Of a stretch of DNA of 64,000 nt, positions 33,815 through 48,843 are shown in pieces. The DNA comes from Inquilinus sp. Marseille-Q2685 (GTDB taxonomy: Bacteria; Pseudomonadota; Alphaproteobacteria; DSM-16000; Inquilinaceae), in NCBI RefSeq assembly GCF_916619195.1, contig NZ_CAKAKL010000002.1:1366001-1430000 (forward strand), in the 5' to 3' direction. Position 1 is the first letter of the stretch, and each line of letters opens with the position of its first letter. Under the pieces are notes generated by a model. That model ran no database searches. It was not told the DNA's origin and saw only the letters and a program-made list of their open reading frames with translations. A program made the translations under genes and the position numbers.

Positions 33815-35097
33815 CCGTCCATGTCATCGGCGGCGGGCTGGCCGGCCTCGCCGCCGCAGTCGAGCTCGCCCGCACCGGCGTCCCGGCGGTGGTCTACGAG
33901 GCCACGGCCCGACCTGGCGGCCGCTGCCGCGCCTTCCACGAGCCGGCGCTGGACCGGGGGATCGACAACGGCAACCACCTGGGGCTGTCCGGCAACCGTA
34001 ACGTCCGGCGCTATCTCGACCTGATCGGCGCCGGCGACCGGCTGGCGGCCCCGGCCCGGCCCGGCTTCCGCTTCGTCGACCTGGAGCGCGGCCGCGAATT
34101 CACGGTGCGGCCGAACCGCGGCCGGCTGCCCTGGTGGGTGCTGCGCGCCGGCCGCCGGGTGCCGGGCACGCGCCCGCGCGACTATCTGGCGCTGCGCCGC
34201 CTGTCCAAGGCGGGGCCGGAGGACACCGTCGCCGGCATGGTGCCGCAGGGCGAGCTGTACCGCTGCCTGATCGAGCCGCTGGCCGTCTCCGCCCTCAACA
34301 CCCCGGCCGACGAGGCCTCGGCCCGAGGCCTGTGGGCGGTGGTGGAGCAGACGCTGGCCAAGGGCGGCGCCCAGACCATCCCGCTGATCGCCCGCAGCGA
34401 CCTGGCCGACACCTTCATCAACCCGGCGCTGGACTTCCTGCACCGGCATCGCGTGACGGTCCGCACCGGCATGCGGGTCAAGGCGCTGGAGTTCGAGGAG
34501 GGCCGCATCATCGCGCTGGAGCTGGACCAGGGCACCCTGCCCCTGGCGCCGGACGACCAGGTGGTGCTGGCGGTGCCGCCGGCGATCGCGGCGCGGCTGG
34601 TGCCGGGGCTGACGCCGCCGGAGGCGGACGAGCCGATCGTCAACGGCCATTTCGCCATTCCGTTTCGGGAGGAACCGCACGACATCGCCGGCATCGTCGG
34701 CGGCACCGCCCATTGGGTGTTCCGCCGGCCGGGCATCGCCAGCACCACGGTCAGCGCCGCGCGCGGCCTGGTCGACGCGCCGGCGGAGGAACTGGCGCCG
34801 CTGCTGTGGGCCGATGTGGTGCGGGCCTTCCCGGACTTGGCCGGCCCCCTGCCCGCCCATCGCATCATCAAGGAGAAACGGGCGACGATCCGCCAGAGCC
34901 CGGCGGACGAAGCCCGGCGGCCGGGCTGCCCGACGCCCTACCCCAATCTCTGGCTGGCCGGCGACTGGACCGCGACCGGGCTGCCGGCGACCATCGAGGG
35001 CAGCCTGCTGTCCGGCTTCCGCGCCGCCGACCATGTCCGCGCCGCAGGGGCCTCGAACGGTCAGGTCAGAGCCCGTCCGAGAAAGCGGCTGGCGTGA
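33811..35097 (+). CDS. hpnE: HpnE, hydroxysqualene dehydroxylase (FAD amine-oxidase family)
   Basis: This 428-residue FAD enzyme is the last step of the bacterial HpnCDE squalene route. The N-terminal flavin fold is HVIGGGLAGLAAAVELA (residues 4-20), followed by ARPGGRCRAF. The C-terminal FAD-closing motif is LWLAGDWTATGLPATIEGS. The start overlaps the hpnCD stop (ATGA, 33811-33814), so stoichiometric translation with the fused synthase is likely. Downstream lie a family A repeat and unrelated genes. Confidence 0.94.
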   Translation: MTVHVIGGGLAGLAAAVELARTGVPAVVYEATARPGGRCRAFHEPALDRGIDNGNHLGLSGNRNVRRYLDLIGAGDRLAAPARPGFRFVDLERGREFTVRPNRGRLPWWVLRAGRRVPGTRPRDYLALRRLSKAGPEDTVAGMVPQGELYRCLIEPLAVSALNTPADEASARGLWAVVEQTLAKGGAQTIPLIARSDLADTFINPALDFLHRHRVTVRTGMRVKALEFEEGRIIALELDQGTLPLAPDDQVVLAVPPAIAARLVPGLTPPEADEPIVNGHFAIPFREEPHDIAGIVGGTAHWVFRRPGIASTTVSAARGLVDAPAEELAPLLWADVVRAFPDLAGPLPAHRIIKEKRATIRQSPADEARRPGCPTPYPNLWLAGDWTATGLPATIEGSLLSGFRAADHVRAAGASNGQVRARPRKRLA

Positions 35098-35339: not shown

Positions 35340-36386
35340 CTACCGGGCGGGCTCGGCGAGCATCTCGTGGACCAGTGGCATGACCTTCGACCCGAACAGC
35401 TCGATGCTGCGCATCAGCTTGTCGTGCGGCAGCGGGCCGGCGCTGTACTTCAGCTGGAAGCGCACGGCGCCGAGCGCGGTGACGGTCGAGACGATCTTGC
35501 GAGCCACCGTCTCGGGCGACCCGACATAGAGCGAGCCGTGCTCGGCCTCGCGCTCGAACTCGCCCTGGCCCATCGGCGGCCAGCCGCGCTCCGCGCCGAT
35601 CTTGTCGCGCATCTTCTTGTAGTCGGGGAACAGCTCCTGCCGCGCCCGGGCGTCGGTGTCGGCGACATAGCCCGGCGAATGCACGCTGATCGGCTGCACC
35701 GGCCGGCCCAGCTGCTCGAAGGCGCGGTGGTACAGATCGACATAGGGGCGGAAGCGCTTGGGGTCGCCGCCGATGATGGCCAGCGCCAGCGGCAGGTCGT
35801 AGCGCGCGGCGCGGACCACCGATTCCGGGCTGCCGCCGACGCCGATCCAGGTCGTCAGCCGGCGCGCGCCCTCGACCGGCGGGAAGACGCTCTGGTTGCG
35901 CAGCGGCGGGCGGACGCTGCCCTGCCAGCTCACCGGCTCCTGCCGCAGCAGCGCCGCGAACAGGTCCAGCTTCTCCTCGAACAGCGTCTCGTAGTCGCTG
36001 AGCTCGTAGCCGAACAGCGGGAAAGATTCGGTGAAGGAGCCGCGGCCGAGGATCACCTCCGCCCGCCCGTTCGAGATCGCATCCAGGGTCGAGAAGCGCT
36101 GGAACACGCGGATCGGGTCGTCGGAGCTGAGCACGGTGACGGCGGAGCCGAGATGGATCTGCGTCGTGCGACCGGCGATCGCCGCCAGCAGCACCTCGGG
36201 CGCGGAGACGGCGAAATCGGCGCGGTGATGCTCGCCGACGCCGAAGAAACCGATGCCGAGCTGGTCGGCCAGCACGGCCTCTTCGACCACGTTCCGCAGC
36301 ACCTGGGCGTGCGGCAGCAGGGCGCCGTCCGGACCGGTGGTCACGTCGCCGAAGGTGTCGAGTCCGAGTTCGAGAGGCTGGGCCAT
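35340..36386 (-). CDS. LLM-class flavin-dependent oxidoreductase (Atu2307/SP_0267 type)
   Basis: This 348-residue TIM-barrel luciferase-like monooxygenase opens with QPLELGLDTFGDV and contains FFGVGEHHRADFAVSAPEVLL, typical of the Atu2307-like group. SAVTVLSSDDPIRVFQRFSTLDAISNGRAEVILGRGSF is the family's FMN-binding core. It uses FMNH2 or F420-type cofactors on an unknown substrate. The start is ATG 36386 (MAQPLELG), and the longer reading adds sequence without homology. It is isolated, with the mazG-like gene upstream on the same strand. Confidence 0.83.
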   Translation of the reverse strand: MAQPLELGLDTFGDVTTGPDGALLPHAQVLRNVVEEAVLADQLGIGFFGVGEHHRADFAVSAPEVLLAAIAGRTTQIHLGSAVTVLSSDDPIRVFQRFSTLDAISNGRAEVILGRGSFTESFPLFGYELSDYETLFEEKLDLFAALLRQEPVSWQGSVRPPLRNQSVFPPVEGARRLTTWIGVGGSPESVVRAARYDLPLALAIIGGDPKRFRPYVDLYHRAFEQLGRPVQPISVHSPGYVADTDARARQELFPDYKKMRDKIGAERGWPPMGQGEFEREAEHGSLYVGSPETVARKIVSTVTALGAVRFQLKYSAGPLPHDKLMRSIELFGSKVMPLVHEMLAEPAR

Positions 36387-36497
36387 GGGGATCCCTGGGT
36401 CACGAAGCAAAGTTACCGCAGAGATGGCCACCCCGATTGGCCGATCAATGTCCCCGACGGGAAACAGACTGTCCTATGCGCGGATCTTCTCGCCTGC

Positions 36498-36800
36498 TCA
36501 CTCCGGCCGGAACCGCCATTTCCGCTCCACCGCCGCGGCGAGGTCGATTCCGTTCGCCCGGGCAAACAGCAGGATATGGCCGAGCATGTCGGCGGTCTCG
36601 TCGGCCAGCGCCTGCCGCAACTCGGCCTCGGACCGGCCATGCGTCCGGCCGCGGCCGGTCAGCTTGTTCCAGACCTGGGTCAGCTCGCCCAGATCCTCCT
36701 GCAGCTTCAGCAGGAACCAGTCGGTGTCGCGCCGTAGCCCATTGGCCTCGGCGTAGCGGCGGGACGCGTCCTCGAACTGGTCCTTCAGGCGGTCGAGCAT
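36498..36800 (-). CDS. MazG-like nucleotide pyrophosphohydrolase, 100 aa
   Basis: This short all-alpha NTP pyrophosphatase of the MazG/dUTPase superfamily has the metal-binding E-x-x-E of KLQEDLGELTQVW (residues 32-44) paired with DETADMLGHILLFA (E-x-x-D) near residue 67. Such proteins clear non-canonical nucleoside triphosphates. It is shorter than full MazG, as is common for single-domain members. A family B repeat lies directly upstream, separating it from the phosphonate cluster. Confidence 0.8.
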   Translation of the reverse strand: MLDRLKDQFEDASRRYAEANGLRRDTDWFLLKLQEDLGELTQVWNKLTGRGRTHGRSEAELRQALADETADMLGHILLFARANGIDLAAAVERKWRFRPE

Positions 36801-36916: not shown

Positions 36917-37708
36917 TCACACCCGGAACTTGTATTCCTTGCCCGGCTGCCGCTCGATGTCGGGCGGGAAGTTGGCGCGCTTCTCGGCGAAGTAGCGCTC
37001 GCGGTGGTCGCCATCGGCCAGGCGGTTGTAGGTCAGGTACAGGATCCGCCGCGCCTTGTCGGTCAGGTTCGGCTTCGAGGCGTGCGGGGCGTAGCTGTCG
37101 AAGAACAGCACGTCGCCCGGCTCGGTCGGCACCGGCACCAGCTTGAAGCTGGCCATCTGCTCGTCGGTCAGCGGCTTCCACTCCTCGCCGATCAGCCCGG
37201 TCAGGCGCGGCATGTCCGCCATCTCGAGGCAGCCGTTCTCGACCGTGGCGCGGTCGACCGAGACCATCACCGTCAGGAAGATCGGGGCGTAGCGCGACCA
37301 GCCGGCCTGCTGGTCCTGGTGCGGCTCGAAGCCGGCGCCGCCGGCCATCTTGAAGTTGATCTTCTCCTTGTAGAGGCAGGACGGCGCCCCCAGCAGCTGT
37401 TCCACCGCCTGGAACAGCCGGCCGTGCCGCACCAGCCCGTCGAACTCGGCGTGGTAGGGACAGAAGTTCTCGATCCGCTGCACCACCTTCTTGCTCGGAT
37501 CGAGCAGGCTCGGCTCGTAATAGACCATGTGCTTGCCCGGCTCCTCGGGCATGGCGCTGAGCTCCTCGGTCCAGCGCGTGATCGCCGCGGTCTCGGCGGC
37601 GTCGAAGAAGCCGCGGGCGGCGACCCAGCCGGTGCGCGCATAGGCCGCGAGGTCCTCCGCCGAAAGCGGGCCGGCCTTGGCGTCGGCGGGGGTCACGGAA
37701 TCGGGCAT
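36917..37708 (-). CDS. Phytanoyl-CoA dioxygenase-family Fe(II)/2OG oxygenase of the phosphonate cluster
   Basis: This 263-residue non-haem iron, 2-oxoglutarate-dependent oxygenase has the HxD pair His130/Asp132 in PHQDQQAGW. The distal ligand is His209 in SYAPHAS, followed by the 2OG-binding basic residue in KARRILYLTYNR. Family members include PhnY, which hydroxylates C1 of 2-aminoethylphosphonate. Here the gene starts 3 bp from the stop of a nucleotidyltransferase and is divergent from a PEP mutase operon. I therefore infer that it hydroxylates AEP, or an AEP-lipid, to the 1-hydroxy form. ATG 37708 is preferred over TTG 37714. Confidence 0.8.
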   Translation of the reverse strand: MPDSVTPADAKAGPLSAEDLAAYARTGWVAARGFFDAAETAAITRWTEELSAMPEEPGKHMVYYEPSLLDPSKKVVQRIENFCPYHAEFDGLVRHGRLFQAVEQLLGAPSCLYKEKINFKMAGGAGFEPHQDQQAGWSRYAPIFLTVMVSVDRATVENGCLEMADMPRLTGLIGEEWKPLTDEQMASFKLVPVPTEPGDVLFFDSYAPHASKPNLTDKARRILYLTYNRLADGDHRERYFAEKRANFPPDIERQPGKEYKFRV

Positions 37709-37710
37709 GC

Positions 37711-38469
37711 TCAATGCTCCAGCTGCGGCAGGATCTCCCGCTGCGCGCGGGCCACATCCACGTCGAAATCGATCTCGGTCCAGGGCAGGTCGCTGATGTC
37801 CGCCACGCCGAACCGGTGCGGATGCGCCAGGATCAGGTCGCGGATCGCTTCCTCGTACTCAACAGTGGTGATGCCCTGGCGGACATACCAGTCGGTGCGG
37901 TCGCCGAGCGCACGGGCCATGTCGGGCGAGAAGCGGAAGAAGCCGACCGACTCGCCGTGCCAGTCATGCGCATGCTCGGGCTTCTTGCGGAAGTCGACGA
38001 TGGTGTCGCCGCGGAAGCAGATCTTCACCGGCTCGTCGCCCGGCTCGATCTCGCGGTCGACCAGCAGCGCGTTCTCCGGCGCCGCGTCCAGCAGGCGGCC
38101 GATCATCGGCTCGGGGTACAGCACGTCGCCGTCCATCAGCACCACCGGCGCGCCGGCCGCGAGCTGGTCCCGCTGGACCCAGAGCGAGACCAGGCTGCCC
38201 TCGCGGTAGCGCGGGTTCTCGACGAAGCGGATGCGGCCGCCGAGCCCGAGGCGGTCGATCTCGCGCCGGATCGAGTCGCCCTCATGGCCGATGGTGATCG
38301 AGATGTCCTCGACGCCGTTCGCGTGCAGCGCGGCAATATGCCGTTCCAGCAGCGACCGGCCGCCGAACCGGAGCAGGATCTTCGGGCCGCCGGCGGCCGT
38401 TCCCAGGCGCCGGCCGACGCCGGCCGCGAGGATGATCGCGGTGGCCGCCCGCCTATCGGAGTATGACAA
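37711..38469 (-). CDS. pntC: PntC-like nucleotidyltransferase (putative CMP-AEP synthase)
   Basis: This protein of about 252 residues has the NTP-transferase fold: AIILAAGVGRRLG (residues 11-23) with Lys30 in the sugar-nucleotidyltransferase signature, LMDGDVLYPEPMIG as the metal-binding strand, and WTEIDFDVDVARA at the C-terminus. Enzymes of this group activate choline phosphate or 2-aminoethylphosphonate with CTP. In this setting CMP-AEP is the expected product and would feed the CDP-alcohol phosphotransferase at 44037. No ATG is in frame, and TTG 38469 is the best start. It is divergent from pepM with 111 bp between, and forms a unit with the dioxygenase. Confidence 0.78.
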   Translation of the reverse strand: MSYSDRRAATAIILAAGVGRRLGTAAGGPKILLRFGGRSLLERHIAALHANGVEDISITIGHEGDSIRREIDRLGLGGRIRFVENPRYREGSLVSLWVQRDQLAAGAPVVLMDGDVLYPEPMIGRLLDAAPENALLVDREIEPGDEPVKICFRGDTIVDFRKKPEHAHDWHGESVGFFRFSPDMARALGDRTDWYVRQGITTVEYEEAIRDLILAHPHRFGVADISDLPWTEIDFDVDVARAQREILPQLEH

Positions 38470-38580
38470 GATCGTGATGCTCCGGTTGCATTTTTCTGAA
38501 GCCGACGGAAGATACAGGCCGAATTGCCGGCCCGGCAAGGCGTCGGGCGGCCGAGATTCCGCAACCCGGACATCCGGTTC
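38470..38580. promoter_or_regulatory. Divergent promoter of the phosphonate cluster
   Basis: This 111-bp gap between pntC-like and pepM starts includes the AT-rich stretch GTTGCATTTTTCTGAAG at 38485-38501. It is the only non-coding DNA that can drive both arms. I see no convincing -35/-10 pair and no Pho box. Confidence 0.45.
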
Positions 38581-40275
38581 ATGAGTGAAGACATAATGAA
38601 GGCTCTCGACGATACCGCCCTGACGGGTCCGTCCGATGCCGGCTCCTCCGCCCCGGCCGACCGCCCGAAGACGGTGTTCGCGGCGCTGCGCCAGGAGATC
38701 TTCTCCCCCCCCCTCTCCTTCCTGATGGAGGCGCATAACGGCCTCTCCGCCAAGATCGTCGAGGAAGCCGGGTTCCGCGGCATCTGGGCCTCGGGCCTGA
38801 CCAATTCGGCCAGCCTGGGCCTGCGCGACAGCAACGAGGCGTCCTGGACCCAGGTCCTCGACGTCCTCGAATACATGGCCGACGCGACCACGCTGCCGAT
38901 CCTGGTCGACGGCGACACCGGCTACGGCAACTTCAACAATGTCCGCCGCCTGGTGCGCAAGCTGTGCGAGCGCGGGATCGCCGGGGTCTGCATCGAGGAC
39001 AAGCTGTTCCCGAAGACCAACTCCTTCATCGGCGAGGCCCAGCCGCTGGCCGAGATCGACGAGTTCTGCGGCCGCATCAAGGCCGGCAAGGACAGCCAGA
39101 CCGACGACGACTTCGTGCTGGTGGCGCGGATCGAGGCGCTGATCTCCGGCCGCGGCATGGAGGAGGCACTGCGCCGGGCCGAGGCCTATCACGCCGCCGG
39201 CGCCGACGCGGTGCTGATCCATTCCAAGAAGTCGACCGCGACCGAGATCTTCGAGTTCACCGAGCGCTGGGCCAACCGGTCGCCGGTGGTGATCGTGCCG
39301 ACGATGTATTACGCCACCTCGACCGACCTGTTCCGCCAGGCCGGCATCTCGACCGTGATCTGGGCCAACCATCTGCTGCGTTCCTCGATCACCGCGATGC
39401 GCGAGACGGCCAAGCAGATCTTCGAGGACCAGTCGCTGCGCGAGGTCGAGGGCCGGGTCGCCAGCGTGCGCGACATCTTCGCCCTGGTCGGCAATGCCGA
39501 GCTGGAGGCGGCGGAGCGCCGCTACCTGCCGGGCAAGGCGGCGCCGAAAGCCGTGGTGCTGGCCGCGTCGCGCGGCGACCTGGGCGACGAGCTGACCCGC
39601 GACCAGCCGAAATGCATGATCGACGTGCGCGGCCAGTCGCTGCTGCAGCGCCTGGTGTCGACCCTCGGCGGCAGCGGGCTGAAGGACGTCACCGTCGTAC
39701 GCGGCTACCGCAAGGAGGCGGTGGTGGTGCCCGGCATCAAGACGGTCGACAACGACCGCTACGACGAGACCGGCGAGGTCTACTCCCTGGCCCAGGCGCG
39801 CCAGGCGCTCGACGGCGAGACGGTGGTGGCCTATGGCGACGTGCTGTTCCGGCGCTACATCCTGGACGGGCTGATGTCGAGCGAGGGCGACATCGTCCTG
39901 GCGGTCGACGCCATGAGCCTGTCGGTCAAGCAGCCGAAGAAGACGCTGCGCGACCTGGTCGCCGCCGACCGGCCCTATTCCGGCAGCTACCTGGACGACA
40001 CGCCGGTGCATCTGAAGGCGATGTCCGAGTCGATCCCGGCCGGTGAGGTCAGCGGCGAATGGATCGGCCTGGCCCGGTTCAGCGCCCAGGGCTCGGTCTG
40101 GCTGCGCGAGGAGATCGACCGGATCGAGGCCGAAGGGCTGCTGGAGACGGCGGATCTGCCGCTGCTGCTGACCCGCCTGGCCGCCCGGCATCCGGTGGTG
40201 GTGCAGTACTTCACCGCCCATTGGCTGGATGTCGACACGCTGAGCGACCTGGCCGACGCGCGGAACTTCACCTGA
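38581..40275 (+). CDS. pepM: PEP mutase fused to a nucleotidyltransferase-like domain
   Basis: This 564-residue bifunctional-looking protein has two parts. Residues about 30-310 are phosphoenolpyruvate mutase, which makes phosphonopyruvate and so the C-P bond. The diagnostic EDKxxxxxNS motif is present as E139-D140-K141...N147-S148, and DGDTGYGN is the metal/phosphonate loop. Residues about 328-564 resemble a nucleotidyltransferase, but the signature loop reads [14 protein letters not shown] instead of LAAGxGxRL, so activity of this half is doubtful. [10 protein letters not shown] is retained. It starts the plus-strand arm, with the decarboxylase 78 bp downstream. The ribosome site is weak, and the ATG six codons in is an alternative start. 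Confidence 0.93.
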
Positions 40276-40353
40276 GGAAAAGGCGGCGCGCGACCCAGCC
40301 ATGCGTCCGCGCGCCGCTTCCCTCCGGCGCCGCCGCGCTCTAGAAGAACCGGC

Positions 40354-41526
40354 ATGATCACCGCAGACGAGTTCATCGCAGCGGCGAAGGCGCACGGCCA
40401 CGACTTCTACACCGGGGTCCCGTGCAGCTTCCTGACCCCGCTGATCAACGGCGTGCTGTCGAGCAGTGCCCTGACCTATGTCGGCGCCGCCAGCGAGGGC
40501 GAGGCGGTGGCGATCGCCGCCGGCGCCTGGCTGGCCGGGCGCAGGACCGTGGTGATGTGCCAGAACTCCGGCCTGGGCAACGCGGTCAACCCGCTGACCT
40601 CGCTGAACGCGCCGTTCCGCATCCCGGCCCTGTTCGTCACCACCTGGCGCGGCCAGCCCGGCCAGCCGGACGAGCCGCAGCACGAGGTGATGGGCCGGAT
40701 CACCCAGGACCTGCTGGAGCTGATGGAGATCCCGCAGGCGCCCTTCCCGGCCACGCCCGAGGCGCTGGGGCCGGCGCTGGACCAGGCCGCGGCCCGGATG
40801 GGCGAGACCGGGCTGCCCTATGCCTTCGTCATGAAGAAGGGCGATGTGCGGGACGAGGATCTGCAGGCGGCGCCGCTGCCCCGGCCCCGCCCCGGCCGCC
40901 GCGCCGACTGGCCGGAAGCCGGGCCGCGCCCGACCCGGGCCGCGGTGCTGGAGCGGTTCCTGGCCCTGACCGACGACCGCACCGCCGTGGTCGCCACCAC
41001 CGGCAAGGCGGGGCGCGAGCTGTTCACTCTGGCCGACAGGAAGCAGCACATCTACCAGGTCGGATCGATGGGCGGCGCCTCCGGCATGGCGCTGGGCGTG
41101 GCGCTGAACACTTCGGCGCCGGTGGTGGTGCTGGACGGCGACGGCGCCGCGCTGATGAAGCTGGGCACCTTCGCCACCATCGGCGCCCAGGCGCCGGGCA
41201 ACCTGATCCACATCCTGCTCGACAACGGCGTGCATGACTCGACCGGCGGCCAGGCCACCGTCTCCGCCTCGGTCGACTTCGCCGCGGTGGCGCTGGCCTG
41301 CGGCTATCAGTTCGCCGCCTCCTGCGCCAGCCTGGACGGGTTCGAGGCCGCGTTCCGAGCCGCGGCCGAGGCGCCGCGGCCGGCGCTGATCCATGTCCGC
41401 ATCGCGCCGGGGTCGATGGACAAGCTGGGGCGGCCGACAGTCGCCCCGGCCGATGTCGCCCGCCGCTTCAAGGACTTCCTCGCCGGCGCCCGCCCGGCCG
41501 CAACGGGTGCTGACGCCGCATCATGA
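40354..41526 (+). CDS. ppd: Phosphonopyruvate decarboxylase
   Basis: This 390-residue thiamine-diphosphate enzyme decarboxylates phosphonopyruvate to phosphonoacetaldehyde, pulling the unfavourable PEP mutase reaction forward. The N-domain has FYTGVPCSFLTPLIN and the activating glutamate in AASEGEAVAIAAG. The ThDP/Mg site is VVVLDGDGAALMKLG...LLDNGVHDSTGG (GDG near 252 and N near 285). It is immediately downstream of pepM, and its stop overlaps the next gene by ATGA (41523-41526). Confidence 0.95.
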   Translation: MITADEFIAAAKAHGHDFYTGVPCSFLTPLINGVLSSSALTYVGAASEGEAVAIAAGAWLAGRRTVVMCQNSGLGNAVNPLTSLNAPFRIPALFVTTWRGQPGQPDEPQHEVMGRITQDLLELMEIPQAPFPATPEALGPALDQAAARMGETGLPYAFVMKKGDVRDEDLQAAPLPRPRPGRRADWPEAGPRPTRAAVLERFLALTDDRTAVVATTGKAGRELFTLADRKQHIYQVGSMGGASGMALGVALNTSAPVVVLDGDGAALMKLGTFATIGAQAPGNLIHILLDNGVHDSTGGQATVSASVDFAAVALACGYQFAASCASLDGFEAAFRAAAEAPRPALIHVRIAPGSMDKLGRPTVAPADVARRFKDFLAGARPAATGADAAS

Positions 41527-42524
41527 AATGGCCCGCCTGCATCGGAATCGCCGTCGGCCTGGCGGTCGCGGTCGTGCTGGTCTGGCTGACCGGCGCGGCC
41601 GAGATCTGGGCCGCGCTGGCCGGCGCCGGCTGGGGCATCCTGGCCGTCATCGCCCTGCACTTCCCGCAATTCCTGTTCTCGTCGCTCGGCTGGCGGGTGC
41701 TGGTGCCGGAGCGGCCGGTGCCGGCCCTGAGCTTCTTCATCCGGCTGCGCTGGATCCGCGAGGCGATCAACTCGCTGCTGCCGGTGGCGCAGATCGGCGG
41801 CGAGCTGATCACCGCCCGCCTGCTGGCGATGCGCGGCGTGCCCCTGAACCGGTCCGGCGCCGCCATCGTCGTCGACCTGACCACGCAGATGGCCAGCCAG
41901 GTGGTGTTCACCGTCTTCGGCCTGGGGCTGCTGCTGCTCGGCGCCCATGACGGCGCGATGACGCCCTGGATCATCGCCGGCGCCAGCGTCGGCCTGGTGC
42001 TGGTGGTGCTGTTCATCGGCGCCCAGCGCTTCGGCATGTTCAAGGTGCTGGAGCGCGGCCTGATCCGGCTGGCCGACAAGTTCGGCTGGGAGTCGCTGGG
42101 CGAGGTCTCCGGCCTGCACGATTCGATCGTGTCGCTCTATGGCGACCATGCCCGCCGGGTGTGGGTCTCGGGCGGCCACCACCTGGTCTCCTGGCTGCTC
42201 GGCTGCCTGGAGATCTGGATGACTCTGCAGGCGCTGGGCGTCGATGCCGGGCTGCGCGAGGCGGTGATCATCGAGAGCCTGGCCCAGGCCGTCCGCGTCG
42301 CCGGGGTGCTGGTGCCTGGCGCGCTGGGCGTGCAGGAGGGCGGCTTCATCGTCATCTGCGGCCTGCTCGGCATCCCGCCGCACAGCGCCGTGGCCATGGC
42401 GCTGATCCGCCGGATCCGCGAGATCGCGCTGGGCGTGCCCGGGCTGATGGCCTGGCAGGTGATGGAGGGCCGCCACCTGGCCCGCCGTCGCCGTGCCCGC
42501 GCCGCGTCGGAGGCGTCGTCATGA
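41523..42524 (+). CDS. HpnL/LPG-synthase-TM-type multi-pass membrane protein
   Basis: This 333-residue inner-membrane protein has about eight helices. It matches the UPF0104/lysylphosphatidylglycerol synthase transmembrane family, which includes MprF flippase domains and hopanoid-associated HpnL. Conserved points are INSLLPVAQIGGELITARLL (residues 80-99) and VLVPGALGVQEGGFIVICGLLG. In MprF the domain flips aminoacyl-lipids. Here it is translationally coupled to phosphonopyruvate decarboxylase upstream and AEP transaminase downstream (ATGA overlaps on both sides). I infer that it flips the phosphonolipid product. A direct hopanoid role, as HpnL, is the alternative. Confidence 0.8.
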   Translation: MKWPACIGIAVGLAVAVVLVWLTGAAEIWAALAGAGWGILAVIALHFPQFLFSSLGWRVLVPERPVPALSFFIRLRWIREAINSLLPVAQIGGELITARLLAMRGVPLNRSGAAIVVDLTTQMASQVVFTVFGLGLLLLGAHDGAMTPWIIAGASVGLVLVVLFIGAQRFGMFKVLERGLIRLADKFGWESLGEVSGLHDSIVSLYGDHARRVWVSGGHHLVSWLLGCLEIWMTLQALGVDAGLREAVIIESLAQAVRVAGVLVPGALGVQEGGFIVICGLLGIPPHSAVAMALIRRIREIALGVPGLMAWQVMEGRHLARRRRARAASEASS

Positions 42525-43627
42525 CCTGGTCCGCGGACGAGCCGGCCCTGCTGACCCCCGGCCCGCTGACCACGCGGATCGAGACCCGCCGCGCCATGCT
42601 GCGCGACTGGGGCTCGCGCGACCGCGCCTTCATCGCCCTGACGGCGGAGCTGCGGCAGCGGCTGCTGGCCGTCGCCGGGGGCGAAGCCAGCCATGTCGCC
42701 ATTCCCCTGCAGGGCAGCGGCACCTTCATCGTCGAGGCGGCGATCGCCACGCTGCTGCAGCCTTCGGGCAAGCTGCTGGTGCTGGCCAACGGCGCCTATG
42801 GCGAACGCATGGTCGCCATCGCCACCCGGCTGGGACGGCCGGTCGAGGCCCTGCGCTGGCCGGAGGACCGGCCGGTGGAGCCGGAGCGCGTCGATGCGGC
42901 GTTGGCCGCCGACCCGTCCGTCACCCATGTCGCCCTGGTCCATTGCGAGACCACCTCGGGCATCCTCAACCCGTTCGAGGCGGTGGCCGAGATCGTCGCC
43001 CGGCACGGCCGGGCGCTGATCCTGGACGCGATGAGCAGCTTCGGCGCGCTGCCGATCGACCTCTCGGCCACGCCGGCCGCGGCGGTGCTGGCCTCCAGCA
43101 ACAAGGGGCTGGAGGGCGTGCCCGGCCTCGGCTTCGCCCTGGTCGAACGCCAGGCGATCGCGGCGGCGAAGGGCAACAGCCCATCCCTCAGCCTCGACCT
43201 GCACGACCAGTGGCGCGGCTTCGAGGGCAACGGCCAGTGGCGCTTCACCCCGCCGGTGCAGGTGGTCGCGGCCCTGGTCGAGGCGCTGCGCCTGCTGGAG
43301 GCCGAAGGCGGCCCGGCCGGCCGGCTGCGCCGCTACCAGGACAATTTCGACACGCTCGCGGCCGGCATGGGCCGACTGGGCTTCCGGCTGTTCCTCGACC
43401 CCGCGGTGCAGGCGCCGATCATCGCCACCTTCCACCCGCTGGACGACCCGCGCTTCGCCTTCGACCGCTTCTACGAGGCGCTGGCCGCGCGCGGCTTCCT
43501 GATCTATCCGGGCAAGCTGACCCGGGCCGACAGCTTCCGCATCGGCTGCATCGGCGCCCTCGATCGCAACGATTTCCAGGCTCTGCTCGTTGCCATCGAG
43601 GACGCGTTGTCGGAGATGCGCCGATGA
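42521..43627 (+). CDS. 2-aminoethylphosphonate transaminase (PhnW/AepZ-like)
   Basis: This 368-residue class V PLP aminotransferase aligns with 2-aminoethylphosphonate:pyruvate transaminases. Features are LLTPGPLTT at the N-terminus, PLQGSGTFIVEA, the PLP-contacting Asp169 in LILDAMSSFG and the Schiff-base Lys195 in SSNKGLEGVPG. LIYPGKLTRADSFRIGCIG closes the active site. In degradation PhnW removes the amine. Beside PEP mutase and Ppd the reaction should run in reverse, aminating phosphonoacetaldehyde to AEP. Overlaps with the genes on each side place it in the core of the operon. Confidence 0.92.
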   Translation: MTWSADEPALLTPGPLTTRIETRRAMLRDWGSRDRAFIALTAELRQRLLAVAGGEASHVAIPLQGSGTFIVEAAIATLLQPSGKLLVLANGAYGERMVAIATRLGRPVEALRWPEDRPVEPERVDAALAADPSVTHVALVHCETTSGILNPFEAVAEIVARHGRALILDAMSSFGALPIDLSATPAAAVLASSNKGLEGVPGLGFALVERQAIAAAKGNSPSLSLDLHDQWRGFEGNGQWRFTPPVQVVAALVEALRLLEAEGGPAGRLRRYQDNFDTLAAGMGRLGFRLFLDPAVQAPIIATFHPLDDPRFAFDRFYEALAARGFLIYPGKLTRADSFRIGCIGALDRNDFQALLVAIEDALSEMRR

Positions 43628-44046
43628 AGTTCCCCCTGCTCCTCACCGCCGCCTGGCTCGGCCTGGGCGCCGCCGCGGCGTCGGCGGCGACGGTCGAGAT
43701 CGTCGTCACCAACATCAAGGAAGCCCGCGGCACCATCCGGATGTCGCTGTGCCCGCAGGCGCAGTTCCTGAAGGACGACTGCCCCTACAGCGGCACGGCG
43801 CCGGCCGCGGTGCCGCAGGCGACCGTGGTGATCCGCAACGTCGCCCCCGGCGTCTATGCGGCGCAGGGTTTCCAGGACGTCAACGACAACCACGAGGTCG
43901 ACCGCACCCTGCTGGGCGTGCCGGAGGAAGGCGTCGCCTTCTCGCGCGACCCGTCCTATTTCTTCGCCCCGCCGGACTTCAAGGACGCCGCCTTCACCGT
44001 CAGCCCCCAGGGCACGCGGATCACCGTCCGGCTGCGCTATTTCTGA
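43624..44046 (+). CDS. DUF2141 periplasmic protein
   Basis: This 140-residue protein has a Sec signal peptide (LLLTAAWLGLGAAAASA) followed by a beta-sandwich DUF2141 domain. It shows GTIRMSLCPQAQFLKDDCPY near residue 36, a likely disulfide pair, and the family region GVYAAQGFQDVNDNHEVD...LLGVPEEGVAFS. Function is unknown. Its start overlaps the transaminase gene, so it is produced with the phosphonate enzymes. A periplasmic lipid-handling role would fit but is inference. Its stop overlaps the convergent phosphatidyltransferase gene by 10 bp. Confidence 0.78.
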   Translation: MKFPLLLTAAWLGLGAAAASAATVEIVVTNIKEARGTIRMSLCPQAQFLKDDCPYSGTAPAAVPQATVVIRNVAPGVYAAQGFQDVNDNHEVDRTLLGVPEEGVAFSRDPSYFFAPPDFKDAAFTVSPQGTRITVRLRYF

Positions 44047-44639
44047 ACGGCGGGCTTCGGCCGGCGCGACAGCAGCCCGAGCCAGAGCGCGCCCGCCGGG
44101 GTGATCACCGCCGCCGCGATCAGCATCGGCCAGGCCAGCCCGAGCCAGACGAAGACCGGCACCAGGGCCAGCGCGTCGTCGGGGTCGACCACCACGCCGC
44201 GGTGGCGCATGGCATAACGCGACAGCTCGATCACCTTGGTCACGTTGAGCTGCCAGAACAGCACGCCGATGCCGATGCCGGCGGCGGCGCCCAGCAGCAC
44301 CGGGGCGAAGCCGAGGCCGGCCTGGGCCAGCCCGATGCCGATACCGATGAAGGCGATCGCGTCGCACAGGCAGTCGACGCACGGGTCGTAGCGGTGCCCG
44401 CCCGGGCTCATCTGCCCGGTCTGCCGCGCCAGCTCGCCGTCGGCCCGGTCGAACAGCATCGACAGCAGGAACACGATGCCACCGAGATCGGCCCAGCCCC
44501 CGCCGCAGGCGAACCCCACCGCCGCCGCCACGCCGGTGACCAGCCGCACGGTGGTGAGCTGGTTCGGGGTGACGCCGGTCGGCGCGATCCGCCGGACGAC
44601 CGGCCGGACGATGCGATGGATCAGGGTGTCGTGACTCAT
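44037..44639 (-). CDS. CDP-alcohol phosphatidyltransferase, putative phosphonolipid synthase
   Basis: This 200-residue integral membrane enzyme has the complete CDP-OH phosphatidyltransferase signature D-x2-DG-x2-AR-x8-G-x3-D-x3-D, read here from DRADGELAR through GHRYDPCVD at about residues 64-90. The N-terminus (PNQLTTVRLVTGVAAAV) is also typical. These enzymes displace CMP from a CDP- or CMP-activated head group or lipid. Standing tail to tail with the phosphonate operon, it is the natural candidate to move AEP from CMP-AEP to diacylglycerol or another alcohol. An ordinary phospholipid role (PgsA- or Pcs-like) remains possible. Confidence 0.82.
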   Translation of the reverse strand: MSHDTLIHRIVRPVVRRIAPTGVTPNQLTTVRLVTGVAAAVGFACGGGWADLGGIVFLLSMLFDRADGELARQTGQMSPGGHRYDPCVDCLCDAIAFIGIGIGLAQAGLGFAPVLLGAAAGIGIGVLFWQLNVTKVIELSRYAMRHRGVVVDPDDALALVPVFVWLGLAWPMLIAAAVITPAGALWLGLLSRRPKPAVQK

Positions 44640-44850: not shown

Positions 44851-45447
44851 ATGACTGCGTCCATACCCTCCCGGCCCCTGGGTCCGACTCTCACGCGCCG
44901 TGCCGCGCTCGGCGTGATCGGCGGCATTGCCTTGGCCGGACCGGCCGCCCATGCCCTGCCTCCCGCGGCGCGGCCCGGCTCGCTGCTCGATGAGGTGCAC
45001 AACCGGGTGCCGCCCTATCTCGAGCTGACCCACGCCCATACCGGCGAGACCTATGCAGGCCAGTTCTACGGCCCGGCCGGATACGACACGGTGGAGCTGC
45101 AGAAGCTCGACTACTTCCTGCGCGACTGGCGACAGGGCCAGAGCGTGCAGATGGACCCGCGGCTGTTCTGGGCGCTGGCGGTGATCCGCACCGTGGCCCA
45201 GCGGGCCGGCTTCAGCGGCAAGGCGACGATCAATTCCGGCTATCGCACGCTGAAGACCAATTCCTCGCTCGAGGGGGCGGCCCGCAATTCCCTGCACATG
45301 GCCGGCCGGGCCATCGACCTGACCTTCGAGAAGGTGCCGCCGAGCCAGCTGGTCGGCTGCGCCTTGGCGCTGCAGATCGGCGGCGTCGGCCAGTATCCGG
45401 GCTTCACCCATATCGATTCCGGCAACCTGCGGACCTGGGAAGGCTGA
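44851..45447 (+). CDS. DUF882/YcbK-like M15-family peptidase, exported
   Basis: This 198-residue protein has a Tat-like twin-arginine leader (TRRAALGVIGGIALAG) and a DUF882/peptidase M15 fold. Related E. coli MepK cleaves peptidoglycan cross-links. Zinc ligands are recognisable in SLHMAGRAIDL (S-x-H-x2-G-x-A-x-D) and FTHIDSG. ATINSGYRTLKTN is the usual SGYR segment. It sits between the phosphonate cluster and the secretion genes, with no operon partner. It could open the wall for an envelope-spanning machine, but that is only positional. Confidence 0.82.
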   Translation: MTASIPSRPLGPTLTRRAALGVIGGIALAGPAAHALPPAARPGSLLDEVHNRVPPYLELTHAHTGETYAGQFYGPAGYDTVELQKLDYFLRDWRQGQSVQMDPRLFWALAVIRTVAQRAGFSGKATINSGYRTLKTNSSLEGAARNSLHMAGRAIDLTFEKVPPSQLVGCALALQIGGVGQYPGFTHIDSGNLRTWEG

Positions 45448-45449
45448 GG

Positions 45450-45473
45450 GGCGCCGCGGCCGGTGACGGCGCC
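45450..45473. terminator. GC-rich hairpin after the DUF882 gene
   Basis: GGCGCCG (45450-45456) pairs with CGGCGCC (45467-45473) around a 10-base loop, 3 bp after the stop, followed by ATTACAAT. There is no T-run, so termination is plausible but weakly supported. Confidence 0.3.
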
Positions 45474-45626
45474 ATTACAATCAGCGCGGCCCGGACCTGA
45501 TTCCCAATCGCGGAGTCGACGTAACGGCGCGATCATTCTATCCATGATCCAGCCTTGCGTGACCGCGCAGGCGCGCCCGCCAGAGGCGTCCCGGATCCGG
45601 TTTTCCAAGGGGGAGAGCCCGCCGCC

Positions 45627-46391
45627 ATGCCGTTCCCGTTCACCCGCGCCGCCATCGTCGCGACGGCCCTGATCGTCGCGGGTTGCGGCGAATCGCAGAC
45701 GACCTCGCTGCTGCGGATGGGCGACAACATCCGCGCCGCGGGCGACCCCGACACGGCGATGACCTTCTATCAGCGTGCCGCGACCGAGGACCCCGGCAAC
45801 CCGCTGCCGATGGTCAAGCTGGGCGACGCGACCCTGCAGGCCGGCGACCCGGCGCGGGCCGCCAGCTACTACCACGCCGCCCTGGCGGTGGAGCCGACCA
45901 ATGTCGATGCCCTGCGCGGCCTGGGCAAGGTGCAGCTGGCCCAGGGCAAGCCGCAGGAGGCGATCGCGGTGCTGGACCAGGCGCTGGCCCGCAAGCCGGA
46001 CGACGTGTCGACCATCCTGGCCAAGGGCACCGCGCTGGCCCTGCTGGGCCGGCCCCAGGAGGCGCAGCGGCTGTACCAGGCGGCGCTGACCAAGGCGCCG
46101 ACCAATGTCAGCCTGAAGACCAACCTCGCCCTCTCCTACGCCCTGGCGGGCAACACCGGCGAAGCGGTGCAGGTGATGCGGGAGGCCGCTGCGGCGCCCG
46201 ACGCCACCGCGGCGCAGCAGCGCAACCTGGCGCTGGTCCTGGCGATGGACGGCAAGACCCAGGAGGCGCGGAAGGTGGCCGATTCGGTGCTGCCGGCGAA
46301 GGAGGCGCGCAACCTGGTCAACGCGGCGCGCCGGATCCGCGGCATGAAGGACCCGGTGCGGCGGGCTCAGGCGATCGGCACGATCGGCTGA
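45627..46391 (+). CDS. TadD-like TPR lipoprotein
   Basis: This 254-residue protein has a short lipoprotein signal (lipobox IVAGC, Cys18) and then about five tetratricopeptide repeats from residue 30 to 220, for example ALRGLGKVQLAQGKPQEAIAV and AKGTALALLGRPQEAQRLYQ. This is the layout of TadD, which in Flp/Tad pili helps assemble the CpaC/RcpA secretin. Two of its usual partners, CpaD and CpaC, are encoded convergently next door inside the T3SS arm, so it may be the assembly factor for that secretin. GGGGGAGAG precedes the ATG. Confidence 0.75.
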   Translation: MPFPFTRAAIVATALIVAGCGESQTTSLLRMGDNIRAAGDPDTAMTFYQRAATEDPGNPLPMVKLGDATLQAGDPARAASYYHAALAVEPTNVDALRGLGKVQLAQGKPQEAIAVLDQALARKPDDVSTILAKGTALALLGRPQEAQRLYQAALTKAPTNVSLKTNLALSYALAGNTGEAVQVMREAAAAPDATAAQQRNLALVLAMDGKTQEARKVADSVLPAKEARNLVNAARRIRGMKDPVRRAQAIGTIG

Positions 46392-46541
46392 AAGACCGGT
46401 TGGGAATGCACCTGGCGCGGCCGTCTGGCGGCGGGTTTTGCGCTTCCGATGCTCACGCACCAAACGTGCGCTGCGCTCCGGTTCTCGAAACCACCGCCAG
46501 CCGACTCACGCCAGCGCATTCCAAAGGGTCCTTGTGTCGGT

Positions 46542-47231
46542 TTATGGAGTGGTGCCGCCCGAGATGCTGGTCGCGTCGGGGCTGGTCCCGGCCGACGGCG
46601 GCAGGACCATGCCCGCCTGGCTGCGGTCGCCATGGAAATCGGACCCCGCGGAGGTCCGGTCGTCGCCGTCGAGCTGCAGGTAGCGCTCGGCCGCGCGGAC
46701 CGAGGGGTTAGCGAAGGCCGGCCCCATCTGGCGGCCGCGGAACAGGTCGCTCTTGCGCTCGACCTGCTGCGCCAGGTTGAGGTCGCTGGCGCAGCCGAGC
46801 GGCAGATCCTCCGGCAGCGAGCCGTCCGGGTTCATGCAGCGCTTCGGCCACAGCACCTGCTGCCCGGCCGCCGCCACCTGCACCGTGTCGGAGGCGGACG
46901 GATCGTTGACCAGGGAGATGCTGTAGCGGCCGGTGCTACGCAGCACCGCCGCCACCGCCTCCTGCCGGGCCGCCGCCTGCGGGCCGCCGGCGGCGACGGT
47001 GACGGAGGATCCGGGGGCCAGTCCGGCGCCGCGGACGAACTCGACCAGCCGGGTCCGCTCGGTCGCGCTCAGGCTCGACGCCTGGGGCGCGAACATGACC
47101 GGGTGCGCCACCGGGGTCGACAGGGTGGTGTAGCCATCCTCGGGCCAGTCCGGGAACTTGTGTTCGCAGGCGGCCAGGACGCCGGCCAGGGCCAGCGCCG
47201 CGAGATGATGCGGTCGGATCGGGAACCTCAT
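46542..47231 (-). CDS. CpaD-like outer-membrane lipoprotein in the T3SS arm
   Basis: This 229-residue lipoprotein has lipobox VLAAC (Cys22) and a CpaD-type domain: FAPQASSLSATERTRLVEFV (an OmpA-like region), VLRSTGRYSISLV, then GCASDLNLAQQVERKSDLFRGR. The L-G-C-A...N-L-A-x-Q-V motif is diagnostic for the Tad pilus protein CpaD/RcpB. It lies 8 bp downstream of a CpaC-type secretin and is the last gene of the minus-strand secretion operon. No other Tad pilus genes (TadA, TadB/C, Flp pilin, CpaB, CpaE) are present. Confidence 0.85.
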   Translation of the reverse strand: MRFPIRPHHLAALALAGVLAACEHKFPDWPEDGYTTLSTPVAHPVMFAPQASSLSATERTRLVEFVRGAGLAPGSSVTVAAGGPQAAARQEAVAAVLRSTGRYSISLVNDPSASDTVQVAAAGQQVLWPKRCMNPDGSLPEDLPLGCASDLNLAQQVERKSDLFRGRQMGPAFANPSVRAAERYLQLDGDDRTSAGSDFHGDRSQAGMVLPPSAGTSPDATSISGGTTP

Positions 47232-47239
47232 GGCACGTC

Positions 47240-48835: not shown

Positions 48836-48843
48836 CTTCCCCC

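Follow-up and report, generated by a model that had tools for sequence, protein, structure and literature searches.

The recurrence of 2-aminoethylphosphonate (AEP) genes among hopanoid genes in distant bacteria suggests, at the level of sequence, a phosphonate lipid not yet described, which might be a hopanoid carrying a phosphonate. The window, that is, the whole 64,000-nucleotide stretch of Inquilinus sp. Marseille-Q2685 DNA analyzed, holds eight phosphonate-related genes next to a hopanoid island at 20.0-35.1 kb in which shc, hpnC/D/E, hpnH and hpnG lie together (Table 1). Here we identified the genes, checked their motifs, predicted folds and documented both a recurrent linkage to hopanoid genes and a co-occurrence with them. 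As to what the cluster does, we are evenly divided on whether it would form a side branch of hopanoid biosynthesis, in which a membrane lipid with a phosphonate head is made on an extended hopanoid as acceptor and then exported.

Table 1. Hopanoid island and phosphonate cluster, with positions in the window.
Product	Positions	Strand	Basis or remark
HpnN-type RND hopanoid transporter	20003-22540	+	tblastn extent
MlaA-like	22902-23621	+	
HpnM-like protein	23822-24406	-	tblastn extent
IspH	24729-25667	+	
HpnH, adenosylhopane synthase	25718-26869	+	
HpnG	26885-27475	-	tblastn extent
Squalene-hopene cyclase	27701-29548	-	tblastn extent
HpnB	29653-30822	-	
HpnA	30831-31823	-	
HpnC-HpnD fusion	32078-33814	+	
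HpnE	33811-35097	+	
PhyH-type Fe(II)/2-oxoglutarate oxygenase	36917-37714	-	PF05721 match, HxD and distal H; candidate AEP C1 hydroxylase
NTa, stand-alone PntC/LicC-like cytidylyltransferase	37711-38469	-	NTP_transf_3; conserved GxGxR, D115, E206, D234
PepM-NT, PEP mutase fused to LicC-like nucleotidyltransferase domain with A-A-S-R-G loop	38581-40275	+	TIGR02320
Phosphonopyruvate decarboxylase (PPD)	40354-41526	+	TIGR03297
HpnL, MprF-flippase-like membrane protein	41523-42524	+	TIGR03476, fold match
2-Aminoethylphosphonate transaminase, PhnW/AepZ type	42521-43627	+	PRK13479, TIGR03301, TIGR02326
DUF2141 protein, signal-peptide-like start (by eye)	43624-44046	+	PF09912
CDP-alcohol phosphatidyltransferase (CDP-AP), all four signature Asp present	44037-44639	-	PF01066

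All eight genes are present with open, intact reading frames where the preliminary description had placed them, save for small start corrections, and the coordinates bear out the two divergent arms and single convergent gene that it described. The families it named are right, with profile scores far above chance and mostly over model cut-offs, but it overlooked the fusion of the PEP mutase with a second nucleotidyltransferase domain, and its "LPG-synthase-TM" protein is HpnL. The term "self-contained" is not wholly accurate: Inquilinus carries a second HpnL and CDP-AP pair on the same contig, ~680 kb away. Trees were computed for 94 PepM-NT sequences (a subset), 38 of 75 HpnL and 58 of 91 CDP-AP sequences; in the last of these, the CDP-AP of the distant pair falls among enzymes encoded within the clusters of Magnetospirillum and its relatives.

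Conversion of PEP to AEP by the mutase, decarboxylase and transaminase is well supported by profile scores and an intact mutase motif. PepM-NT reaches 393.2 bits with TIGR02320 (cut-off 319.55), the decarboxylase 426 bits with TIGR03297 (cut-off 312) and the transaminase 453 bits with TIGR03301 (cut-off 361), PRK13479 and TIGR02326 being likewise over cut-off, so that decarboxylase and transaminase both pass equivalog cut-offs within one cluster, as befits the AEP route (ppm-ppd-aept). The mutase motif EDKxxxxxNS is complete, and its five positions are invariant, bar one undetermined residue, across 116 aligned homologues, a redundant set in which Burkholderia is heavily represented. In the fused nucleotidyltransferase (NT) domain of the same 116 homologues, the loop has Ser in 98, Arg in 104 and Gly in all, and Pro-Lys and the Asp of YGD are found in every one. 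Since this unusual loop is kept in most homologues, we dropped the notion of a dead domain and do not term it degenerate. According to PMC6697681, the PEP mutase-NTP_transf_3 fusion accounted in 2019 for about one third of the 1485 PEP mutases in RefSeq that had the diagnostic motif.

Activation with CMP would fall to NTa, whose PntC-like character, proposed earlier, appears well supported. It scores 61 bits against NTP_transf_3 (cut-off 27), and its closest solved structure is Treponema denticola PntC (6pd1; E 7e-8, residues 10-250), with LicC and other nucleotidyltransferases close behind. Kinship to PntC is accompanied by the nucleotidyltransferase signature: GxGxR and D115 are found in 88/88 homologues, and Glu206 is Glu in 87/88. 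Read by eye, the alignment matches Glu206 to Tde-PntC Glu196 and puts an Asp, as in LicC, at the position of Tde-PntC Glu104 in 86/88 homologues; PMC6697681 locates these two glutamates, Glu104 and Glu196, at the amine group of AEP. In a draw across the phylum 7/398 genomes had NTa, too few for it to serve as a marker. The oxygenase scores 83 bits with PhyH (PF05721, cut-off 22) and has HQD and a distal His in place. Its closest NCBIfam model is that of methylphosphonate hydroxylase PhnY* (NF052437), but with 183.3 bits against an equivalog cut-off of 500 it is a relative of PhnY* and not a member.

Three products point to the membrane or periplasm. CDP-AP scores 54 bits with PF01066 (cut-off 22), carries the complete DxxDGxxAR(x8)GxxxDxxxD signature announced for it and is predicted to have the family fold (pLDDT 87.9, top PDB match AF2299). 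HpnL scores 289.2 bits with TIGR03476 (cut-off 195.65), and the top six PDB matches of its predicted fold are all MprF (probability 1.00, TM 0.54-0.60 by query), with E values from 8e-4 to 3e-2 of which the first alone is below 0.001; these matches support the flippase-like fold predicted for this multi-pass protein. The DUF2141 protein scores 87 bits with PF09912 (cut-off 24).

The linkage to hopanoid genes extends well beyond Inquilinus. PepM-NT has HpnH as a neighbor no more than 15 kb away in 21/65 genomes from 15 families, namely 13/44 in Alphaproteobacteria (0.55 expected) and 8/21 in Gammaproteobacteria (0.20 expected). "Directly beside a hopanoid island", as the cluster had been described, understates the case, for relatives among alpha-, beta- and gammaproteobacteria interleave both sets in one island, which makes the hopanoid itself a candidate acceptor. 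In some relatives the AEP genes and shc, hpnG, hpnN and hpnA form a single co-directional run. One locus (L209) reads HpnCD-SHC-HpnG-HpnN-HpnA-HpnL-NTa-PepM-PPD-PhnW-CDPAP and three others (L198, L205 and L207) have PhyH between HpnG and HpnN, gene starts in these operon-like runs being estimates. Roseomonas marmotae plasmid p1318-3 holds hopanoid and AEP genes in one island, and Mycetohabitans pBRH01 has them in one stretch. The suggested neighborhood search for pepM next to CDP-AP returned the pair in many lineages, with HpnL recurring there too. Magnetospirillum sp. SS-4, Roseomonas nepalensis and Cupriavidus basilensis, all culturable, each have the cluster as well as HpnH. Conversely, 20 HpnH islands of PepM-NT-negative genomes, hand-picked from 62 with contig size considered, contained no PepM, NTa, PPD, PhnW or CDP-AP.

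These maps come from tblastn with queries from the window and from Roseomonas nepalensis at a bit score of at least 42-45, and are not full annotations. The Roseomonas labels HpnM, MlaA, HpnN, DXS, HpnG and SHC were assigned by reading its ORFs; on p1318-3 the queries land on annotated VacJ, MMPL transporter, hopanoid-associated phosphorylase and shc, and HpnM, a label without such support, was left out of hpn gene counts. Loci were retrieved for 40/44 alphaproteobacterial and 20/21 gammaproteobacterial genomes, some as contig fragments, leaving out G000 (the window), G007, G307, G312 and G1090; in G007 and G312 the match spans the mutase part alone, so a fusion is unsupported there. Within this set, neither NTa nor CDP-AP nor any counted hpn gene turned up in 13/40 alphaproteobacterial PepM-NT loci. 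Of the loci that do have NTa or CDP-AP, 11/25 alphaproteobacterial and 9/19 gammaproteobacterial ones are devoid of counted hpn genes over the retrieved stretch, on short contigs in some cases but not in others.

Could this neighborhood be accidental, two pathways common in large-genome Proteobacteria having clustered by chance or in one ancient event? Three alphaproteobacterial genomes (G014, G300 and G334) do hold PepM-NT and HpnH on a common contig 0.2-2 Mb apart, and shared ancestry inflates the counts. Yet fewer than one close pair would be expected against the 21 found in 15 families, and gene orders differ among relatives; together with a strong family-level association and the low HpnH frequency among weak mutase-only matches (both below), this makes coincidence very improbable.

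Co-occurrence across genomes points the same way. In 385 alphaproteobacterial genomes, HpnH is found in 44/44 with a strong PepM-NT match (E under 1e-100) vs 62/341 others, and in 321 gammaproteobacterial GTDB genomes in 19/21 vs 24/300, a count that excludes the sole weak match (G996, itself without an HpnH match). All 21 alphaproteobacterial PepM-NT families have HpnH (p ~1e-12 if the draw is taken as 173 families), although family counts and Fisher values ignore shared ancestry. Among named genomes, HpnH is present in 28/28 with CDP-AP in the locus vs 13/22 without, as examined in 50 of 80 with most Burkholderia excluded. Genomes with weak mutase-only matches, 8/12 of which cross a stop codon, served as a loose control and have HpnH in 4/12 cases. 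PepM-NT is nevertheless no universal hopanoid marker, since 9/50 named genomes are without HpnH, and of these L015 alone has a squalene-hopene cyclase over cut-off; of the two HpnH-negative gammaproteobacterial PepM-NT genomes, G978 has the cyclase and G994 does not. Part of the co-occurrence is lineage and not function, because L146 and L149, two gene-called loci from among the 13 mentioned above, resemble glycan clusters although HpnH is present in their genomes. Mutual exclusion of the AEP genes and the HpnI headgroup route was considered and discarded: at E 1e-40, HpnI occurs in 14/44 PepM-NT genomes vs 10/36 others (36 of the 62 HpnH-positive, PepM-NT-negative genomes; 3/24 HpnI matches are below the model cut-off), and its presence in 2/13 genomes with HpnH close to PepM-NT is not significant.

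The same glycan-type clusters, judged from ORFs read by eye, lend some credit to the idea that the CMP-phosphonate is destined for a glycan at the cell surface or for a small molecule that is secreted, with CDP-AP and HpnL belonging to another pathway. So do Agrobacterium cavarae (L012), where by eye NTa-PhyH-PepM-PPD-PhnW adjoins P450-like and other biosynthetic ORFs, and a Rhizobium plasmid with NTa-PhyH-LicD plus AEP genes. However, neither a glycosyltransferase nor LicD is among the eight genes, CDP-AP and HpnL accompany PepM-NT in many lineages, and HpnL is locked between decarboxylase and transaminase by 4 bp overlaps (PPD/HpnL and HpnL/PhnW, as also PhnW/DUF2141), so that we regard this destination as improbable.

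In the hopanoid-branch reading, substrates and products beyond family knowledge, the acceptor above all, are what we infer. PepM, decarboxylase and transaminase would convert PEP to AEP, the PhyH-type oxygenase would probably hydroxylate C1 to give 1-hydroxy-AEP, and NTa would form the CMP conjugate of the phosphonate. CDP-AP would then pass the phosphonate on to an alcohol in the membrane, for which the likeliest candidate is a hydroxyl on the HpnH-dependent extended side chain of a hopanoid, e.g., bacteriohopanetetrol. The resulting phosphonohopanoid would be flipped by HpnL and carried to the outer membrane by HpnN with HpnM/MlaA-type proteins.

We know of no CDP-alcohol phosphatidyltransferase that acts on a hopanoid. 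Most of the nearest solved relatives of CDP-AP work on CDP-diacylglycerol or diacylglycerol; since they mix CDP-diacylglycerol, CDP-inositol and CDP-choline enzymes, we abandoned reading donor or acceptor from its sequence or fold. A classical phosphonolipid, with CMP-AEP passed to diacylglycerol or ceramide in a Kennedy-like manner as in eukaryotes to give an AEP analogue of phosphatidylethanolamine, is a substantial possibility, if one we hold less probable than not. HpnL would flip this lipid, which would be exported with hopanoids, and as both would serve the same ordered outer membrane, the gene linkage would be explained without a shared molecule. Cholinephosphotransferase 1 is among the weak sequence relatives of CDP-AP, the HpnN/HpnM/MlaA-type transport genes of the islands would suit any outer-membrane lipid, the two CDP-AP/HpnL sets of Inquilinus make two acceptors possible, and PMC5987646 interprets this gene set in such a way for Nostoc and Burkholderia. 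Diacylglycerol is, however, universal in bacteria, and such an acceptor leaves unexplained both HpnH in 28/28 named genomes with a CDP-AP locus and the runs in which AEP genes are combined with shc and hpnG.

A broader conjecture, which we put slightly short of evenly balanced, is that phosphonohopanoids exist as a widespread undescribed class, formed when AEP or 1-hydroxy-AEP, activated with CMP, is esterified to a C35 hopanoid. If so, the PEP mutase-NTP_transf_3 fusion in Proteobacteria would for the most part feed a branch of hopanoid metabolism, and HpnL would be the flippase of the phosphonohopanoid. Who makes phosphonates, and on which molecules, is a question of the phosphorus cycle to which a general genetic link to hopanoids offers one testable answer: it names a lipid to seek, candidate strains and plasmids, and a gene whose loss should abolish the lipid. 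With a hopanoid as acceptor, a class of geochemical biomarker lipids has an overlooked phosphonate branch; with diacylglycerol, hopanoid membranes have a dedicated phosphonolipid partner. The link also bears on hpnA, hpnB and hpnL, whose functions are not established according to PMC12583986.

Parts of this picture have precedents. PMC5987646 (Fig. 7) draws a phosphonolipid cluster for a lichen Nostoc and its Burkholderia homologue with the same CDP-AP, Fe/2OG oxygenase, NTP transferase, pepM, ppd, AEP transaminase and hpnL; Inquilinus differs in having DUF2141 and a neighboring hopanoid island, and no hopanoid link is drawn in the available text of that paper. The Treponema denticola Pnt pathway (PMC6697681) likewise features AEP genes together with PEP mutases fused to an NT domain and with PntC-like cytidylyltransferases as separate proteins, but Treponema PntC itself is fused to the transaminase, unlike NTa, and the terms "hopanoid" and "CDP-alcohol" are absent from the text of that paper. 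Alphaproteobacterial hpn islands described in PMC12583986 share shc, hpnA-E, G, H, L, M and N with ours; where the available part of that study reports no obvious extra candidate genes near hpn clusters, we find AEP genes interleaved in many islands. Among the titles listed in a search mostly outside subscription papers, PMC8776678 alone connects hopanoids with phosphonates: a PEP mutase beside the hopene cyclase in Roseomonas led to the suggestion of an "undiscovered terpene-phosphonate". Neighborhood and idea are the same as here, but in the available text of that paper they are limited to Acetobacteraceae and HpnL, CDP-AP and the logic of CMP activation are not discussed. The gene set itself and the terpene-phosphonate idea have thus been published before, and what is new is the generality of the phosphonate-hopanoid gene link.

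All eight genes that the preliminary description had assigned to an aminoethylphosphonate (AEP) lipid cluster are in place, unbroken and scoring above their family cut-offs. Its PEP mutase call holds (EDKxxxxxNS intact), but it had missed that the same frame continues into a C-terminal nucleotidyltransferase domain, to which LicC is the closest solved relative (1jyk, E 3e-8); we call this fusion PepM-NT. The PntC-like nucleotidyltransferase (NTa) is indeed separate from the fused domain and has T. denticola PntC as its best solved relative (6pd1, E 7e-8, alignment over residues 10-250; LicC E 7e-6). The multi-pass protein is present too, although its label "LPG-synthase-TM" has to be corrected to HpnL (TIGR03476, 289 bits against a cut-off of 196). 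From the coordinates, 4-bp overlaps join phosphonopyruvate decarboxylase (PPD) to HpnL, HpnL to the AEP transaminase (PhnW) and PhnW to the DUF2141 gene; the frames of the Fe(II)/2-oxoglutarate oxygenase (PhyH) and NTa also overlap, and the CDP-alcohol phosphatidyltransferase (CDP-AP) gene meets DUF2141 tail to tail with a 10-bp overlap. The genome comprises 7.29 Mb in 18 contigs, and among named genomes Inquilinus limosus strains stand closest, their PepM-NT being 94-97% identical and their gene order the same up to the ends of their contigs. A record titled Mycobacterium sp. KBS0706 (L005, NZ_VCCH02000054.1) carries the Inquilinus island, over the available stretch from HpnB to the M15 peptidase gene, at 83-97% protein identity and is probably a mislabelled Inquilinus genome.

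Coordinates of the features in the window and of a second HpnL/CDP-AP pair in the same genome
Feature	Position	Remarks
Hopanoid island	about 20.0-35.1 kb	HpnN, MlaA-like, HpnM-like, IspH, HpnH, HpnG, squalene-hopene cyclase (SHC), HpnB, HpnA, fused HpnC-HpnD, HpnE
HpnC-HpnD	32078-33814	one open reading frame, 578 aa; fused match also in I. limosus (L004)
Luciferase-like monooxygenase	35340-36431	Atu2307/SP_0267 family; between hpnE and phosphonate genes; place kept in I. limosus (L004)
100-aa ORF	36498-36800	MazG-like by eye, no Pfam match; between hpnE and phosphonate genes, likewise in I. limosus (L004)
NTa	37711-38469	
PepM-NT	38581-40275	
Downstream genes	44851-51109	MepK-like L,D-endopeptidase relative (below its NCBIfam cut-off), TPR protein, CpaD-type pilus gene, then a secretin-like ORF (own ORF reading)
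Second HpnL/CDP-AP pair	G000:C2, about 718.9-720.6 kb (L092:7891-9557)	adjacent genes, ~680 kb from the window cluster

For the families involved, AEP synthesis and CMP activation are close to certain. Across 88 NTa homologues GxGxR is invariant, D115 and D234 are kept in 88/88 and E206 in 87/88. The available text of PMC6697681 places two glutamates of Tde-PntC, Glu196 and Glu104, at the AEP amine; in our own reading of the 6pd1 alignment, E206 aligns with Glu196 but the Glu104 position is Asp, as in LicC, so that the selectivity signature of NTa is mixed. The fused domain reads A-A-S-R-G where its relatives have G-x-G-x-R (PepM-NT residues 323-343, numbered from 38584); most of 116 homologues share this loop (Ser in 98, Arg in 104, Gly in 116), which would represent an unusual yet maintained active site. 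PhyH has the HQD motif and the distal His; tried as a PhnY* methylphosphonate hydroxylase, it reached 183 bits against a cut-off of 500, which makes it kin and not a member. The abbreviation list of a Nostoc paper (PMC5987646) contains 1-hydroxy-2-aminoethylphosphonate, which fits a hydroxylation step.

All four Asp of the CDP-AP signature are present, and the AlphaFold2 model (pLDDT 88; top PDB matches AF2299 and phosphatidylinositol-phosphate synthases) confirms the predicted family fold, which carries no information on the acceptor. A flippase role predicted for HpnL is reasonable, since the top six PDB matches of its model (pLDDT 88) are all MprF structures, with E <0.001 for the first only. 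Because the cluster combines CDP-AP with an MprF-like HpnL, its product is likely a membrane lipid. Among 91 CDP-AP copies the four-Asp pattern fails in 19, including that of L135, where no motif was found at all. Islands with at least two CDP-APs (L132, L133, L134, L135, L137, L138, L142, L157, L159, L161, L163, L165, L169 and L170) often include one or two copies that lack the fourth Asp, the proposed catalytic base, and typically read D..DGELAR........G...DY.....SY; such copies may use another acceptor or be partners.

In the neighbourhood search proposed earlier for pepM near CDP-alcohol phosphatidyltransferases, 80 loci were kept of 81 named PepM-NT matches, and in the stretch available 55 have a CDP-AP-like and 67 an NTa-like match (any identity, at least 42 bits). 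HpnL matches adjoin most CDP-AP-bearing loci; the same homology search gave none in the two Nostoc loci. Among the 50 of 80 named genomes tested, HpnH occurs in 28/28 with CDP-AP in the locus against 13/22 without (Fisher 2e-4; Burkholderiaceae over-represented). Among 385 genomes drawn from the Alphaproteobacteria (PepM-NT presence being a match <1e-100), the association with HpnH, the adenosylhopane synthase, is near-complete: 44/44 with PepM-NT have it against 62/341 others (Fisher 8e-29, relatedness ignored). Each of the 21 families with PepM-NT is also one of the 54 with HpnH, out of about 173 in total, a figure taken from the highest family code drawn. For 321 Gammaproteobacteria (GTDB sense) the counts are 19/21 against 24/300 (7e-17, relatedness ignored); of the PepM-NT genomes without HpnH, G978 has SHC and G994 has none. 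HpnH lies within 15 kb of PepM-NT in 13 alpha genomes (9 families; 0.55 expected at random positions) and 8 gamma genomes (6 families; 0.20 expected). Alpha genomes with weak mutase-only matches, a loose control since a stop codon interrupts 8 of the 12 matches, have HpnH in 4/12. In 20 hopanoid islands picked by hand from genomes without PepM-NT, PepM, NTa, PPD, PhnW and CDP-AP are all absent, and 4 of these islands contain HpnL.

The two gene sets also intermingle. In Roseomonas nepalensis the phosphonate cluster sits within the hopanoid island (some labels from our own ORF reading). R. marmotae plasmid p1318-3 holds both in one stretch (VacJ, MMPL transporter, polyprenyl synthetase, cytidylyltransferase, aepX, aepY, HpnL-type protein, transaminase, CDP-AP, small hypothetical, ispH, hpnH, phosphorylase, shc, hpnE, hpnD, hpnC, glycosyltransferase, hpnA), with an IS701 transposase beyond; HpnC and HpnD are separate genes there, whereas they are fused in Inquilinus. 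So does Mycetohabitans rhizoxinica pBRH01 (CDP-AP, 2OG-Fe(II) oxygenase, HpnL-type protein, cytidylyltransferase, aepX, aepY, transaminase, dxs, two hypotheticals, MMPL, ABC-substrate-binding protein, ispH, hpnH, hpnA, glycosyltransferase, hypothetical, shc, hpnD). Locus L138 has a co-directional run, HpnN-NTa-CDPAP-HpnA-HpnL-CDPAP-IspH-HpnH, with its first five genes overlapping, and L209 has HpnCD-type synthase-SHC-HpnG-HpnN-HpnA-HpnL-NTa-PepM-PPD-PhnW-CDPAP, its genes spaced by -4 to 148 bp. PhyH stands between HpnG and HpnN in L198, L205 and L207. We know of no CDP-alcohol phosphatidyltransferase that uses a hopanoid, and co-selection of two partner lipids would look similar. We nevertheless prefer a hopanoid as the acceptor, because diacylglycerol gives no reason for either the near-complete HpnH dependence or the mixed gene runs.

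Lineage contributes to this co-occurrence: 13 of 40 fetched alpha loci (3 of them on contigs <10 kb) have no NTa, no CDP-AP and no counted hpn gene (HpnH, HpnG, SHC, HpnN, or HpnA at 45% or more), and their genomes carry HpnH all the same. Two of the 13, the gene-called L146 and L149, look like glycan clusters in our ORF reading. An hpn gene is in the fetched stretch of 14/25 alpha loci with NTa or CDP-AP and of 10/19 such gamma loci; gamma locus L197 has neither NTa nor CDP-AP. In the PepM-NT tree, hopanoid-linked loci are scattered over many branches with unlinked groups among them, a pattern that fits an old phosphonate-hopanoid linkage that may have been lost several times. AEP genes do not exclude HpnI, a hopanoid headgroup route (HpnI in 14/44 PepM-NT genomes against 10/36 HpnH-bearing PepM-NT-negative genomes).

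The second HpnL of Inquilinus also exceeds the TIGR03476 cut-off, and the 20 kb around the pair hold no further match to hopanoid or phosphonate queries. When 58 CDP-APs were placed in a tree, the window copy fell with Roseomonas (100/100), the second with in-cluster copies from Magnetospirillum, Phaeospirillum, a Rhodospirillales MAG and G014 (100/99); with copies in different groups, Inquilinus may thus have two acceptors or one split system. Three genomes of only ~0.9-1.1 Mb, 68-89% complete (G155, G253, G332; loci L157, L161, L165), still have PepM-NT and NTa together with two CDP-APs, a gene resembling HpnL (23-24% identity) and, elsewhere, HpnH; retention in such streamlined genomes suggests that the lipid matters to the cell. 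Agrobacterium cavarae (L012) and Rhizobium rhizogenes plasmid pC5.7d (L194) have an NTa-PhyH pair alongside AEP genes, in clusters that resemble pathways for small-molecule phosphonates (LicD; an ORF that is P450-like by eye); neither HpnH nor SHC was found in the L012 genome. Judging from gene content, this set could be a portable CMP-(hydroxy)AEP module.

Our literature search returned no phosphonohopanoid and no general hopanoid-PEP mutase link among the matches listed, and the available text of a 2025 alphaproteobacterial hopanoid survey reports no obvious extra candidate genes near hpn clusters (PMC12583986). As far as their available portions go, other papers have already published the PntC logic and PepM-NT fusions (PMC6697681), interpreted this gene set, hpnL included, in Nostoc and Burkholderia as a phosphonolipid cluster (PMC5987646), and suggested a terpene-phosphonate for Acetobacteraceae (PMC8776678).
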